A stretch of 64,000 nt of DNA, taken from the NCBI RefSeq assembly GCF_007997155.1, contig NZ_VORT01000002.1, forward strand, positions 248,001 through 312,000, read 5' to 3'. Shown piece after piece: positions 59,599 to 64,000 of this stretch. Source of the stretch: Aequorivita antarctica (GTDB lineage Bacteria > Bacteroidota > Bacteroidia > Flavobacteriales > Flavobacteriaceae). The position numbers and the translations under genes are program-made. How positions within the stretch are numbered: the stretch's first letter is position 1; each line of letters opens with the position of its first letter. Below the pieces are notes generated by a model. It saw only the letters and a program-made list of their open reading frames with translations, ran no database searches and was not told where the DNA came from.

Positions 59599-59637
59599 AA
59601 AAAATCCCTACCTCTCTTTAGGTCGGGATTTTTTTTT
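59599..59637 (+). terminator. Terminator after the OmpA-like gene
   Basis: AAAAAATCCC-ACCT and AGGT-GGGATTTTTT pair across a short loop with one mismatch and end in a T-run, 20 bases after the stop. Confidence 0.75.
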
Positions 59638-59653: not shown

Positions 59654-60781
59654 ATGGCAAATAGAACAAAACGAGATGTTGTAATAATAGGCGGTGGCCT
59701 GGCAGGCCTTTCAGCCGCATTGCATCTTGCTAACAACAATTGTAAAGTATGTTTGATTGAGAAAAATGAATATCCGCACCACAGAGTTTGTGGCGAGTAT
59801 GTGAGTAACGAAGTATTGCCTTATCTAATTTCTTTGGGAATCAATCCCTTTTCAGTTGGAGCCAAAAAAATATCAAAATTTGAAATTACCGACTCCAAAG
59901 GTGCTCCATTAAAAGCCAGTTTGCCCCTCGGAGGTTTTGGGATTAGCCGTTATGCTTTTGACAATTTGTTGTTTGAAGCCTTAAAGAATAAAGCTGAAAT
60001 TATTTTTGACACCGTTGAAAAAGTAACTTTTGAAGAGAATCATTTTTCGGTTACAACCAAAAAAAAGAATATTTTGAAAGCAGATTTTGTGATAGGAGCC
60101 TATGGAAAAAGATCTAATTTGGATTCTTTTTTAAATCGAAAATTTATGCAGCAAACTTCGCCTTGGCTTGCTGTGAAAGCTCACTATGATTATGATTTCC
60201 CTGATGATACTGTTGCATTGCATAATTTTAAAGGTGGCTATTGCGGGTTAAGCAAAACTGAAACCAATACCGTAAACGCTTGTTATTTGTCCACTTTTAA
60301 GTCCTTTAAGAAATATGGTGTTATTGATGCCTTTCAGAAAAAGGAGCTTTCAAAAAATCCTTATTTGGATAAATTTTTTAAAGAAGCAAAACCGATCTTC
60401 AAAAAACCATTAACCATCAGCCAGGTTTCTTTTCAGAAAAAAGAGCCTGTAAAAAACCATATCTTTATGTTGGGTGATAGTGCAGGACTCATTCACCCGC
60501 TCTGCGGTAATGGAATGGCAATGGCAATAAAGAGCTCCCAAATTTTTTCAGAATTGTTTCTCAAAGCATTTCAAGAAAACAATTTTGATAGAACCAAATT
60601 GGAAGAGGATTACACAGCACAATGGCAAAAAGAATTTGGAGAGAGATTAAAAACAGGAAGATTTATCCAGCGTATTTTGATGGATCCCTTTGCTTCAAAA
60701 GTAGGTTTTTCATTAGCAAAGATTGTTCCTTCGTTGTTGCCGAAATTAATTGAAAAAACACACGGAAGCCAAACAAAATGA
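59654..60781 (+). CDS. FAD-dependent oxidoreductase (geranylgeranyl reductase-like/SrsC-like flavoprotein)
   Basis: A 375-residue flavoprotein with the N-terminal GGGLAGLSAALHLANNNCKVCLIEKN dinucleotide fold, GEYVSNEVLP, GAYGKRSNLD (DG-type motif) and MLGDSAGLIHPLCGNGMAMAI (GD-type motif). It belongs to the group I flavin hydroxylase/geranylgeranyl reductase-like family. In this cluster, between a terminator and an ATGA-overlapped methyltransferase gene, it could hydroxylate the ring made by the type III PKS as SrsC does in Streptomyces. No membrane segments. First gene of the cluster. Confidence 0.85.
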   Translation: MANRTKRDVVIIGGGLAGLSAALHLANNNCKVCLIEKNEYPHHRVCGEYVSNEVLPYLISLGINPFSVGAKKISKFEITDSKGAPLKASLPLGGFGISRYAFDNLLFEALKNKAEIIFDTVEKVTFEENHFSVTTKKKNILKADFVIGAYGKRSNLDSFLNRKFMQQTSPWLAVKAHYDYDFPDDTVALHNFKGGYCGLSKTETNTVNACYLSTFKSFKKYGVIDAFQKKELSKNPYLDKFFKEAKPIFKKPLTISQVSFQKKEPVKNHIFMLGDSAGLIHPLCGNGMAMAIKSSQIFSELFLKAFQENNFDRTKLEEDYTAQWQKEFGERLKTGRFIQRILMDPFASKVGFSLAKIVPSLLPKLIEKTHGSQTK

Positions 60782-61503
60782 TAACCTTCAGCCATAAATA
60801 TAGGTCAGACCAAGTCGAGATAATGGACGACTTGGATTTTCAAGGGGAAGAAATGAAAAATCTTCTAAAAGACTTGAAAACAGTTAACAAATGGCTGGGT
60901 GGAAATAATATTACAATCGATGGCTTACAAAAGTTATTGAAAAATCATCCAAAAAGCAAAAGCATTACGCTTTTAGACATTGGGTGTGGTGATGGCGAAT
61001 TCCTCCGAAAATGCAGTGATTTTGGAAATAAAAACCATTTCAATTTTAAATGTATTGGATTGGATTTCAACGAAAACATTATAGCGGTTGCCAGAAAGCA
61101 AAGCAATAATTATCCAAACATTTCTTTTGAAAAAGTTGATGTTTTTTTGAATGAAGAATCAATTCCAAATTGCGATATTGCATTGTGTACGCTGTTTTTA
61201 CATCATTTCAGTAATGAAAAGATTGAAAGTTTATTGAATACGTTATTGAAAAAAGTAAATATAGGCTTGATAATAAACGACTTGCAACGCAGCAAACAAG
61301 CCTTTAACCTGTTTAAGATAGTAAGTAAACTATTTTTGAAAACAAAAACCGCAAAACACGATGGATTGGTTTCCATTGCGCGAGGATTCAAAAAAAGTGA
61401 ATTGGAAAGTATTTCCAAAAAAATCCCAAATCAACAAAGCGCTATCCACTGGCGTTGGGCATTCCGATATCAATGGATACTTAAAAAAACTTATGAACGT
61501 TAA
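60778..61503 (+). CDS. SAM-dependent methyltransferase
   Basis: A 241-residue class I methyltransferase with motif I LLDIGCGDGEFLRK and post-motif residues CIGLDFNENIIAVAR. The N-terminal region (RSDQVEIMDDLDFQGEEM) resembles UbiE-like methyltransferases that modify phenolic rings. It overlaps the flavoprotein gene by ATGA and its 3' end overlaps the start of the type III PKS by 11 bases, indicating tight coupling. A role in methylating the PKS ring is inferred. Confidence 0.85.
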   Translation: MITFSHKYRSDQVEIMDDLDFQGEEMKNLLKDLKTVNKWLGGNNITIDGLQKLLKNHPKSKSITLLDIGCGDGEFLRKCSDFGNKNHFNFKCIGLDFNENIIAVARKQSNNYPNISFEKVDVFLNEESIPNCDIALCTLFLHHFSNEKIESLLNTLLKKVNIGLIINDLQRSKQAFNLFKIVSKLFLKTKTAKHDGLVSIARGFKKSELESISKKIPNQQSAIHWRWAFRYQWILKKTYER

Positions 61504-62545
61504 AATAACCACAGTAGCAAAACAGCTTCCTGCATTCAGCAGAGAGACTGCGGAAGTAATTCCATTTGTAAAACAATGGATGCATGCACAAGACAGCCGA
61601 TTCCAAAGAAAAGTGATAAAAATATTTGAAGGAGCGGGAGTGGACAAACGTTATTCTATTATGGATCCTATTGAAGTTTTCACAAAAACAAGTTTTGAAG
61701 AACGCAATGATATCTACGTCCGAGAAATAACGAAGCTAGGCAAACAATGCCTCCTAAAAGCACTTGATAAAGCAAACTGGAAACCTACAGATATAGATTT
61801 TATAATCACCGTTAGCTGCACTGGAATTATGATTCCATCAGTAGATGCCTATTTGATTAACGAACTGAAAATGAAGCAAGACATTGTGCGTCTTCCCGTG
61901 ACAGAAATGGGTTGTGCTGCTGGGATTTCGGGAATTATTTATGCAAACAATTTTTTAAAGGCAAATCCTGGAAAGCGTGCCGCGGTTATTGCATTAGAAG
62001 CACCCACTGCCACTTTTCAATTGGAGGATTTTTCAATGGTGAACATTGTTAGCGCGGCAATCTTTGGTGATGGCGCCGCCTGTGTGTTGCTATCCTCTAA
62101 TGAAGCAGATGAAGGCCCCGAAATACTCGCTGAAGAAATGTACCATTTTTATGACGCTACTGATATGATGGGCTTTAAACTTGTAAACACAGGACTTCAA
62201 ATGATTCTCGACAAAAATGTTCCCGAAAAGATTACAGAACACTTTCCAGAAATTGTATATCCCTTTCTGAAAAAAAACAATCTTGAAATTAAAGATATTA
62301 ACCACCTTATTTTTCATCCCGGGGGACGAAAAATATTGGAAACCGTTGAGGATTTGTTCGGCAGTTTGGGCAAAAATATTGAAGATACCAAAGAAGTGCT
62401 TAAATTGTATGGCAATATGAGCAGTGCCACAGTGCTGTATGTTTTAGAACGCTTTATGGACCAAAAACCCAAAAGTGGGGATTTGGGCTTGATGCTCAGT
62501 TTTGGTCCTGGTTTTTCGGCACAAAGAGTTTTACTTAAATTTTAA
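61493..62545 (+). CDS. Type III polyketide synthase (chalcone/stilbene synthase family)
   Basis: A 350-residue type III PKS, started at MNVKITTVAKQLPAF (61493); an upstream in-frame extension to 61361 overlaps the methyltransferase and is rejected. The catalytic triad is complete: Cys141 in EMGCAAGISG, His275 in FHPGGRKIL, Asn308 in YGNMSSAT. The C-terminal GLMLSFGPGFSAQR matches the substrate-gating GPG loop. The enzyme condenses a starter acyl-CoA or acyl-ACP with malonyl-CoA units to give pyrones, resorcinols or phloroglucinols; the family range cannot be narrowed from sequence. The surrounding fatty-acid type genes suggest a long-chain acyl starter. Confidence 0.92.
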   Translation: MNVKITTVAKQLPAFSRETAEVIPFVKQWMHAQDSRFQRKVIKIFEGAGVDKRYSIMDPIEVFTKTSFEERNDIYVREITKLGKQCLLKALDKANWKPTDIDFIITVSCTGIMIPSVDAYLINELKMKQDIVRLPVTEMGCAAGISGIIYANNFLKANPGKRAAVIALEAPTATFQLEDFSMVNIVSAAIFGDGAACVLLSSNEADEGPEILAEEMYHFYDATDMMGFKLVNTGLQMILDKNVPEKITEHFPEIVYPFLKKNNLEIKDINHLIFHPGGRKILETVEDLFGSLGKNIEDTKEVLKLYGNMSSATVLYVLERFMDQKPKSGDLGLMLSFGPGFSAQRVLLKF

Positions 62546-62607
62546 AATTCGTTGTTCAATTATTTAATACCGGTTACTTAGCAGAGCCGTAGTGACATAG
62601 ATTATTT

Positions 62608-63381
62608 ATGAAAGAATTCAAAAATCAATGGGCATTAATCCTTGGCGGAAGTAGCGGACTTGGCCTTGCCAGTGCTAAAAAACTTGCATCCGAAGGGATG
62701 AATATTTGCATTGTCCATCGAGATTTGAAGAATAGTTTGGCTGCTTTTGAGGAAGAGATGAAAAAGATGAAATCCTATGGAGTTTTAGTAAAATCCTTTA
62801 ATCAGGATGCTTTGAATGGAGATGTTAGAAACGAAATACTTAATGAGCTCCCGAAGCATAGCGTTAAAATACTTCTGCACAGCATTGCTAAAGGAAGTTT
62901 AAAAAAAATGCACGACGATAAAAATGAAATCCTTTCAAAGCAGGATTTTGACATAACTATTCACGCAATGGCCGTTAGCTGGTATGAGTGGGTTCAAGCT
63001 TTAATTCAAAAAGAAATATTTGTTGCCAAAGCAAGAAGTATAGCTTTTACAAGCGAAGGAAACTCAAAAGTATGGCCTGGCTACGGGGCTGTTTCTGCGG
63101 CGAAGTCAGTACTGGAAGCTTTAATGCGAAATATGGCGGTAGAGTTGGCCCCATTGGGAATTACAACCAACTGTATTCAGGCCGGAACTACAAAAACACC
63201 TTCATTTTTGGCAATTCCCGGAAGTGATAAATTAGCTGAAATGGCTAAAATGAGAAATCCTTTCAATAGACTAACAACTCCAGAAGATGTTGCCAACGTT
63301 GTGTCGCTACTCTGTAAAAAAGAAGGAGATTGGATAAACGGAACCATAGTGAAAGTGGATGGAGGCGAAAGTTTAAGATGA
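62608..63381 (+). CDS. Enoyl-ACP-reductase-like SDR enzyme (FabL/FabI type)
   Basis: A 257-residue short-chain dehydrogenase with NAD(P)-binding LGGSSGLGLASAKKLA and HSIAKGSL. The catalytic pair reads Y159-x6-K166 (YGAVSAAK), the spacing of FabI/FabL enoyl-ACP reductases, not the usual SDR Y-x3-K. The C-terminal GTIVKVDGGESLR is typical. It probably reduces a 2-enoyl thioester in chain elongation. It starts 62 bases after the PKS stop and precedes the dehydratase. Confidence 0.85.
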   Translation: MKEFKNQWALILGGSSGLGLASAKKLASEGMNICIVHRDLKNSLAAFEEEMKKMKSYGVLVKSFNQDALNGDVRNEILNELPKHSVKILLHSIAKGSLKKMHDDKNEILSKQDFDITIHAMAVSWYEWVQALIQKEIFVAKARSIAFTSEGNSKVWPGYGAVSAAKSVLEALMRNMAVELAPLGITTNCIQAGTTKTPSFLAIPGSDKLAEMAKMRNPFNRLTTPEDVANVVSLLCKKEGDWINGTIVKVDGGESLR

Positions 63382-63396
63382 TTTTAAAAAGATAAT

Positions 63397-63873
63397 TTGA
63401 AGATTAACGAAATTATATTGCAGCTACCGTACTCCGAACCTTTTTTGTTTGTGGATGAAGTGCTTTCCGTTTCCGAAGAAACTATTTCTGGAACCTATAC
63501 TTTTCACAAAGACGCATTTTTTTATAAAGGTCATTTCAAAAACAATCCTGTTACTCCAGGTGTAATCTTGACGGAATGTATGGCGCAGATTGGGTTGGTA
63601 TGTCTTGGTATTTATCTTTTGGACAAAGAGAATAGTTTAACATCACCAACATTTGCTATGAGTAGTATCGAAATAGATTTTTACCTTCCTGTTTTTCCAG
63701 GTGAAAAAGTCAAAGTGCTTTCGGAAAAAAAATACTTCAGGTTTAATAAATTAAAATGTGAAGTGAAAATGCTAAATAATAATGATGAAATTGTTGCGAA
63801 AGGAACTATCAGTGGAATGATAATCAATAAGAAAAGAGAAGAAACAATTCATTCAAAGAAACTTCCTCAATAA
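63397..63873 (+). CDS. FabZ-like 3-hydroxyacyl-ACP dehydratase (hotdog fold)
   Basis: A 158-residue hotdog protein with FYKGHFKNNPVTPGVILTECMAQIG, where His46 and Glu60 correspond to the FabZ catalytic pair. It starts at a TTG (63397) 15 bases after the reductase stop. Together with the reductase and the following ketoacyl synthase it could form a chain-building module for the PKS starter. No other domain. Confidence 0.88.
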   Translation: MKINEIILQLPYSEPFLFVDEVLSVSEETISGTYTFHKDAFFYKGHFKNNPVTPGVILTECMAQIGLVCLGIYLLDKENSLTSPTFAMSSIEIDFYLPVFPGEKVKVLSEKKYFRFNKLKCEVKMLNNNDEIVAKGTISGMIINKKREETIHSKKLPQ

Positions 63874-63881
63874 ACATTTAA

Positions 63882-64000
63882 ATGAAGAAACGTGTAGTAG
63901 TTACTGGTCTTGGAGTGGTTTCACCAAATGGGGTGGGTCTTCCGAAGTTTTCGGATTCCATAAAAAAAGGTATTTCCGGAATCCGCTTTTTCCCAGAACT
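63882..64000 (+). CDS. Beta-ketoacyl-ACP synthase (FabF/KAS-II type), N-terminal part
   Basis: The ATG at 63882 opens a frame that runs off the window: MKKRVVVTGLGVVSPNGVG is the classic start of FabF-type ketosynthases. Only about 39 residues are visible, before the catalytic Cys. It begins eight bases after the dehydratase stop, so it belongs to the same transcript. Confidence 0.9.
   Translation, partial: MKKRVVVTGLGVVSPNGVGLPKFSDSIKKGISGIRFFPE

Follow-up and report, generated by a model that had tools for sequence, protein, structure and literature searches.

The window analysed here is a stretch of 64,000 nucleotides from Aequorivita antarctica (G000:C22:248001-312000), and its right end carries an operon centred on a type III polyketide synthase (PKS), hereafter the cassette, which runs on into the adjoining part of the contig. 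A preliminary description of this DNA had reported six co-directional genes at 59654-64000, and the open reading frames (ORFs) were found at this place and on this strand, with Pfam and NCBIfam classes matching those it had named. It had also suggested extending the sequence past 64000 in search of an acyl carrier protein (ACP) and more fatty acid synthase (FAS) genes, and the extension revealed the complete FabF-like synthase and an 83-aa ACP, which end the operon. The following features were recorded (window positions, or contig coordinates where C22 is given; source of the call in brackets):

59654..60781, plus strand: flavin adenine dinucleotide (FAD)-dependent oxidoreductase, 375 aa (ORF listing, Pfam/NCBIfam, aligned members)
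60778..61503, plus strand: S-adenosylmethionine (SAM) methyltransferase of the Methyltransf_31/25 type, 241 aa (ORF listing, Pfam/NCBIfam)
61493..62545, plus strand: type III PKS, 350 aa, with C141/H275/N308, a second cysteine, Cys109, and Phe228 (ORF, Pfam, alignment, structure)
62608..63381, plus strand: short-chain dehydrogenase/reductase (SDR), a FabL-like enoyl reductase by motif (Y159-x6-K166), 257 aa (ORF, Pfam/NCBIfam)
63397..63873, plus strand: FabZ-like dehydratase with His46/Glu60, 158 aa, TTG start (ORF, Pfam/NCBIfam)
63882..64000 in the window, ending at C22:313153, plus strand: FabF-like ketosynthase (KS), 423 aa, with C169/H311/H348 (ORF, Pfam/NCBIfam)
C22:313159-313410, outside the window: operon ACP, 83 aa, with Ser41 (downstream ORF, PP-binding match)
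59600..59637, plus strand: terminator-like imperfect hairpin with a T run, in the gap that separates the FAD gene from the OmpA-family gene upstream of it (by eye)

The FAD and methyltransferase genes overlap by 4 bp. The PKS ORF as listed begins at 61361, within the methyltransferase gene; the true start is probably the ATG at 61493, which gives 350 aa and from which all PKS residues are numbered here. With this start, the catalytic triad given in the preliminary description (Cys141/His275/Asn308) is correct, and the enoyl-reductase spacing that it had ascribed to the SDR was likewise found (Y159-x6-K166). The flavoprotein matched FAD_binding_3 and the geranylgeranyl-reductase superfamily, the latter being its best NCBIfam model, below its cut-off, while the best model of the methyltransferase was PRK06202 (111.6 bits vs a cut-off of 243). 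The PKS belongs to the CHS/FAE1/RppA-type families, with its Pfam domains over cut-off; its best NCBIfam model was DpgA (NF042429; 170.6 bits, far under the cut-off of 425). For the SDR the best model was FabL (125 bits, under the cut-off of 328), the FabZ-like protein falls in the FabA-like hotdog family, and the operon KS matched best to FabF/FabB and not to a flexirubin model. The ACP has a PP-binding match of 21.7 bits (cut-off 20.8) and a best E value of 1.2e-8 against solved acyl carrier proteins, with its attachment serine sitting in I-N-S-A-H-L-V-D. The gene after the ACP lies on the minus strand. The hairpin at 59600..59637 was absent from the pattern-scan list, and promoter and terminator scan counts were not above those of shuffled sequences.

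A scan of genome contigs returned at least 577 relatives in at least 592 matching stretches, the best 80 of which were kept; the nearest relatives among the matches listed were Aequorivita. The order FAD-methyltransferase-PKS-(SDR)-FabZ-FabF-ACP on one strand was present in 75 of the 75 loci with enough flank, and the part retained in the five remaining loci, which lie near contig ends, keeps the same order. In the full loci the flavoprotein, methyltransferase and PKS genes are adjacent and on the same strand, and FabZ, FabF and ACP are found in 75/75, while the SDR occurs in 40/75 and is missing from 35/75. Neighbouring genes are usually separated by a few bases (median gaps from -2.5 to 16). 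Twenty further regions were read, 12 of which were of the cassette type (two without SDR) and eight of other PKS types. Residues were counted over 92 cassette loci; totals are lower for genes that were cut or split or that scored below 40 bits. In the PKS, Cys141, His275, Asn308, Cys109 and Phe228 were each found in 92/92, as were His46 and Glu60 of FabZ; Cys169 of FabF was found in 89/89 and His311 and His348 in 90/90, Ser41 of the ACP in 89/89, and Tyr159 and Lys166 of the SDR in all 53 SDR-bearing loci. The GxGxxG glycines of the flavoprotein (89/89), its GD-motif Asp (90/90) and the SAM-motif residues D67, G69 and G71 of the methyltransferase (90/90) were equally constant. Judged by these residues, all cassette enzymes look active. 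With the order kept in every flanked locus and the catalytic residues invariant, the operon is far beyond a chance arrangement. Two cassettes contain frame breaks, which reflect decay or sequencing error: in L090 (G199), one of the 12 cassette-type regions read, they split the FAD and PKS genes, and in that of Lacinutrix neustonica (L174), one of the 40 SDR-bearing loci, they split the FAD, methyltransferase and FabF genes.

A close PKS homologue was present in 24 of the 27 other genomes of the genus. Within the family, 143 of 397 sampled genomes (own included), representing 92 of 237 genera, matched the PKS at E 1e-30. Among these, G121 is only 34% identical and has another PKS type; setting it aside leaves 142/397. 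Across the phylum, 171 of 395 genomes matched at E 1e-25, only 33 of them at 63% identity or more, including three from two other families of the class, and the other phylum rows listed reach at most 38%. Since the phylum matches listed fall either at ≥63% or at ≤38% identity, the cassette PKS is by this measure a sharply bounded group. Seven of the other phylum PKSs (34-38% identity) were read: six (L096-L101) stand beside an ICMT-family methyltransferase (PF04140), a pairing that we take to be bps-like, and in the seventh (L102) the PKS is followed by a methyltransferase and a FAD protein. The cassette methyltransferase matches Methyltransf_31/25 and has no ICMT match. A PKS tree built by a quick method places all 92 cassette rows together on one side; of its 94 inner branches 43 are open, and its five outgroup rows are very long-branched. 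The cassettes L085 (G519) and L086 (G677), from two other families of the class and with 73% PKS identity, stand beside the Flavobacterium group at a fork with a support of 88, which is open, and transfer between families is possible. A plasmid search matched 257 records, all below 60% identity and the best-ranked at 34.5%, and showed no cassette-type PKS at that sensitivity.

The structural model of the PKS (predicted local distance difference test score, pLDDT, 91.7) gave TM-scores of 0.90-0.95 by query length against Pks11, CylI and THNS, and the closest structures were, in order, Pks11 of M. tuberculosis (29% identity), CylI (24%) and THNS (28%). In the alignment, Phe228 is matched by a Trp in Pks11 and by a Tyr in THNS, which we take to be Tyr224, at the position of CHS Gly256. 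From residue spacing, we infer that Phe228, W281 of ArsB and F252 of ORAS occupy one position. In the accessible text of the respective reports, ArsB W281G loses resorcinol and gains pyrone (PMC6274091), and ORAS F252G is turned from a resorcinol former into a pyrone former (PMC8086630). By analogy, the bulky Phe228 would favour a resorcinol ring.

The genome holds five other KS matches, all at most 33% identical to the operon KS, and six PP-binding matches over cut-off, of which the operon ACP is one. Some of these other KS and ACP matches fall in a flexirubin cluster at C11:486000-505900 (L209), identified by FlxA (900 bits, cut-off 700), FlxB (420, cut-off 340) and DarB (666, cut-off 550). 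Similar to the cassette, this cluster represents a Bacteroidota aryl lipid pathway with KS, dehydratase-like, SDR and ACP genes; unlike in the cassette, the ring is made by DarA/DarB, with DarA presumably the ring-making partner of DarB, and the locus is a separate one. As the two lie apart, two predicted aryl-lipid pathways coexist in the genome. None of the cassette proteins reached the NCBIfam cut-offs of DarB, FlxB or FlxJ, and no FlxA match was listed for them. On a KS tree with the paralogues of the genome, the cassette KSs form one group, although long branches meet and the nearest paralogue is unsettled. Elsewhere in the genome, a small ACP-KS pair (82-aa ACP, then a 400-aa KS; C14:16105-17428, L189 and L192) lies downstream of an ORF that is peptidase-like by eye, and a lone 79-aa acyl carrier protein (C10:21520-21681, L194) has no biosynthetic gene in the short stretch read around it.

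The gene set is conserved as a block with intact catalytic residues and includes an ACP and a KS separate from the housekeeping ones and from those of the flexirubin cluster. We consider it probable, with room for doubt, that the genes of the operon act together as a single pathway to a phenolic lipid, in which an acyl-ACP primes the PKS to give an alkylresorcinol and then a methylated alkyl hydroquinone or quinone. The acyl group would be extended on the operon ACP by the FabF-like synthase, the FabZ-like dehydratase and, where present, the FabL-like enoyl reductase of the cassette, and housekeeping fatty-acid synthesis would supply the ketoreductase and malonyl transferase. The acyl-ACP would then pass its chain to Cys141 of the PKS, which would add malonyl units and close the ring by aldol condensation, presumably to an alkylresorcinol. 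The methyltransferase, proposed as a ring methylase, and the FAD enzyme, proposed as a ring hydroxylase, would methylate and hydroxylate or oxidise this ring, and the resulting methylated alkyl hydroquinone or quinone would probably reside in the membrane. As far as the accessible text of the cited papers describes them, there are precedents for both halves of this scheme. Acyl-ACP is used by the type III PKSs ArsB/ArsC, SCO7671 and GCS (PMC6274091), and has been proposed for HidC, with a carrier-bound chain for CylI (PMC8086630); operons of methyltransferase, oxidoreductase and PKS in other phyla lead to methylated resorcinols or quinones (PMC10896814, PMC9927152).

Several observations weigh against this proposal. 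No ketoreductase, malonyl transferase, acyl ligase or starter-loading enzyme was found among the operon genes when their ORFs and families were read. Pks11 is a pyrone synthase, yet its counterpart of Phe228 is aromatic too (Trp), so that Phe228 is not decisive. The flavoprotein model (pLDDT 86.1) is about equally similar to phenolic halogenases, 3-hydroxybenzoate 6-hydroxylase, UbiI and geranylgeranyl reductases, and the enzyme could be a reductase instead. Finally, an SDR orthologue was absent from 7/7 SDR-less genomes searched, in which the best matches had 26-30% identity compared to 55-79% for the SDR of three genomes that have it. Since the SDR is missing from 35/75 loci and has no orthologue elsewhere in these seven genomes, it is, on this distribution, nonessential to the pathway.

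SDR presence changes at least eight times on the PKS tree. Among the 39 SDR-less loci, the spacing between PKS and FabZ exceeds 60 bp in 10 and is 60 bp or less in the other 29; no SDR remnant was detected in the 10 wide spacers by tblastn with six SDR proteins at E 1e-3. In five SDR-less Polaribacter loci (L128, L143, L151, L156 and L173) this slot holds 669-814 bp. The slot of L128 (L128:10048-10716), which was read closely, contains an ORF with a sub-threshold match to an IS200-type transposase (20.9 bits, cut-off 23) and flanking palindromes, and has the appearance of a REP-type element lying within the operon; similar repeats occur in the slots of L143 and L156. As a raw association, FabZ carries C61 in 45 of 53 SDR-bearing loci vs 1 of 39 SDR-less ones. 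Residues that track SDR presence were rejected as evidence, as only five independent pairs on well-supported branches are left once kinship is considered and significance is out of reach. As the SDR is repeatedly absent, the same PKS occurs in nature both accompanied by an enoyl reductase and lacking one, and the two situations can be compared.

An alternative explanation, which we regard as unlikely though worth weighing, is that the same acyl-ACP-fed unit makes a pyrone, the PKS closing its product by lactonisation and the methyltransferase acting as an O-methylase, similar to alkylpyrone synthases with a neighbouring methyltransferase. It draws on Pks11, an alkylpyrone synthase and the nearest solved PKS by both sequence and fold, but the bulky Phe228 is invariant at the inferred ring-choice position, every full locus has a flavoprotein, like the resorcinol and quinone triads of other phyla, and the ICMT-type methyltransferase of the other phylum PKSs differs from that of the cassette. 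It is rather unlikely, in our estimate, that the product is a polyketide quinone of a class new to Bacteroidota, which would be made on its own carrier and serve as an electron carrier beside menaquinone in about one third of Flavobacteriaceae, with side-chain saturation switched as the enoyl reductase was repeatedly lost.

The separate KS, dehydratase and ACP could also build an unsaturated or polyene chain, comparable to those of flexirubins and aryl polyenes, and yield a coloured polyenyl ring compound in which the SDR, where present, reduces at least one double bond. The presence of these three genes in every full locus, the loss of the SDR from 35/75 with no orthologue in 7/7 genomes, and the label T3pks-arylpolyene given to an Aequorivita region in the accessible text of PMC6139392 are consistent with such a product; set against them are the 40/75 loci that do have the SDR, a housekeeping enoyl reductase that could replace it, an operon without a ketoreductase and a KS whose best NCBIfam matches are FabF/FabB and not a flexirubin model, and we find a polyene distinctly improbable. 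Least credible to us, and very improbable, is a small ring derived from malonate, of the phloroglucinol or DpgA type, to which the FAS-built chain is joined later by another step. DpgA is indeed the best NCBIfam model of the PKS and THNS is among its nearest structures, but the DpgA score stays at 170.6 bits vs a cut-off of 425, the partners DpgB-D were not seen among the operon genes, and the operon has no acyltransferase that would join the two parts.

The favoured scheme, an acyl-ACP-primed PKS followed by ring methylation and hydroxylation, resembles several known systems in part, compared here as described in the accessible text of the papers. In srs of Streptomyces griseus and pkqA-C of Mycobacterium smegmatis and Streptomyces sp. 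MNU77, a type III PKS, a methyltransferase and a hydroxylase or oxidoreductase stand together, similar to the cassette, and produce methylated alkylquinones or polyketide quinones (PMC9927152). These descriptions name no dedicated FAS genes or ACP, and the PKS comes first vs the order FAD-methyltransferase-PKS of the cassette; the likeness drawn here is one of gene set. The hidABC operon of the picocyanobacterial hierridins and a planctomycetal operon also combine methyltransferase, FAD-dependent oxidoreductase and PKS, and the planctomycetal PKSs, when expressed, gave pentadecyl- and heptadecylresorcinols (PMC10896814). Unlike the cassette, both are three-gene operons for which no KS, dehydratase, enoyl reductase or ACP is named, and the accessible text of PMC10896814 contains the string "Bacteroid" 0 times. 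In ars of Azotobacter vinelandii, type III PKSs receive fatty acids from the ACP of a FAS encoded in the cluster, as proposed for the cassette (PMC6274091, PMC3098273). That FAS is a multidomain one of type I and is accompanied by two PKSs, vs separate FabF-, FabZ-, FabL-like and ACP genes and one PKS here, and methyltransferase and flavoprotein are not part of the ars set as described. In the cylindrocyclophane pathway, likewise, a carrier-bound chain finally reaches CylI, a type III PKS that forms a resorcinol (PMC8086630), although cyl relies on type I PKS extension, a halogenase and an alkylating enzyme, and CylI shares 24% identity with the cassette PKS. The interpretation given in the preliminary description is partly supported: the carrier protein that it predicted is present, while a membrane lipid or quinone as the product is still hypothetical. 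Its comparison with srs and ars is apt for how the pathway would work, but it does not extend to the lack of an operon ketoreductase and malonyl transferase, to a flavoprotein near geranylgeranyl reductases, or to a dissociated rather than type I FAS.

Type III PKS clusters as such have been counted in Flavobacteriaceae before (PMC7440613, PMC10734526, PMC6139392). In the accessible text, such regions make up 10.74% of the biosynthetic clusters of Flavobacteriaceae and close kin (PMC10734526), and an Aequorivita paper mentions a type III PKS cluster without a product (PMC6139392). For marine genomes, 0.39 type III PKS clusters per genome are reported. No product of the flavobacterial type III PKS regions is named in the accessible parts of the literature found. 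The earlier statement that the compound was not ascribed to this group thus fits the searchable literature for the product, though not for the clusters. Within open-access literature, with most subscription papers and supplements outside its reach, neither a paper on the order or product of the cassette nor any triad coupled to an ACP and dissociated FAS genes was found. Acyl-ACP-fed type III PKSs and triads of PKS, methyltransferase and oxidoreductase are known already, and what is apparently new is that such a triad comes with dissociated FAS genes and an ACP of its own. Overall, the readable close homologues represent one fixed cassette, and one characterised member should therefore explain many. 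A sizeable group of heterotrophs from marine and polar habitats would have an unrecognised membrane component, should the product be a phenolic lipid, or an unrecognised redox lipid, should it be a quinone.

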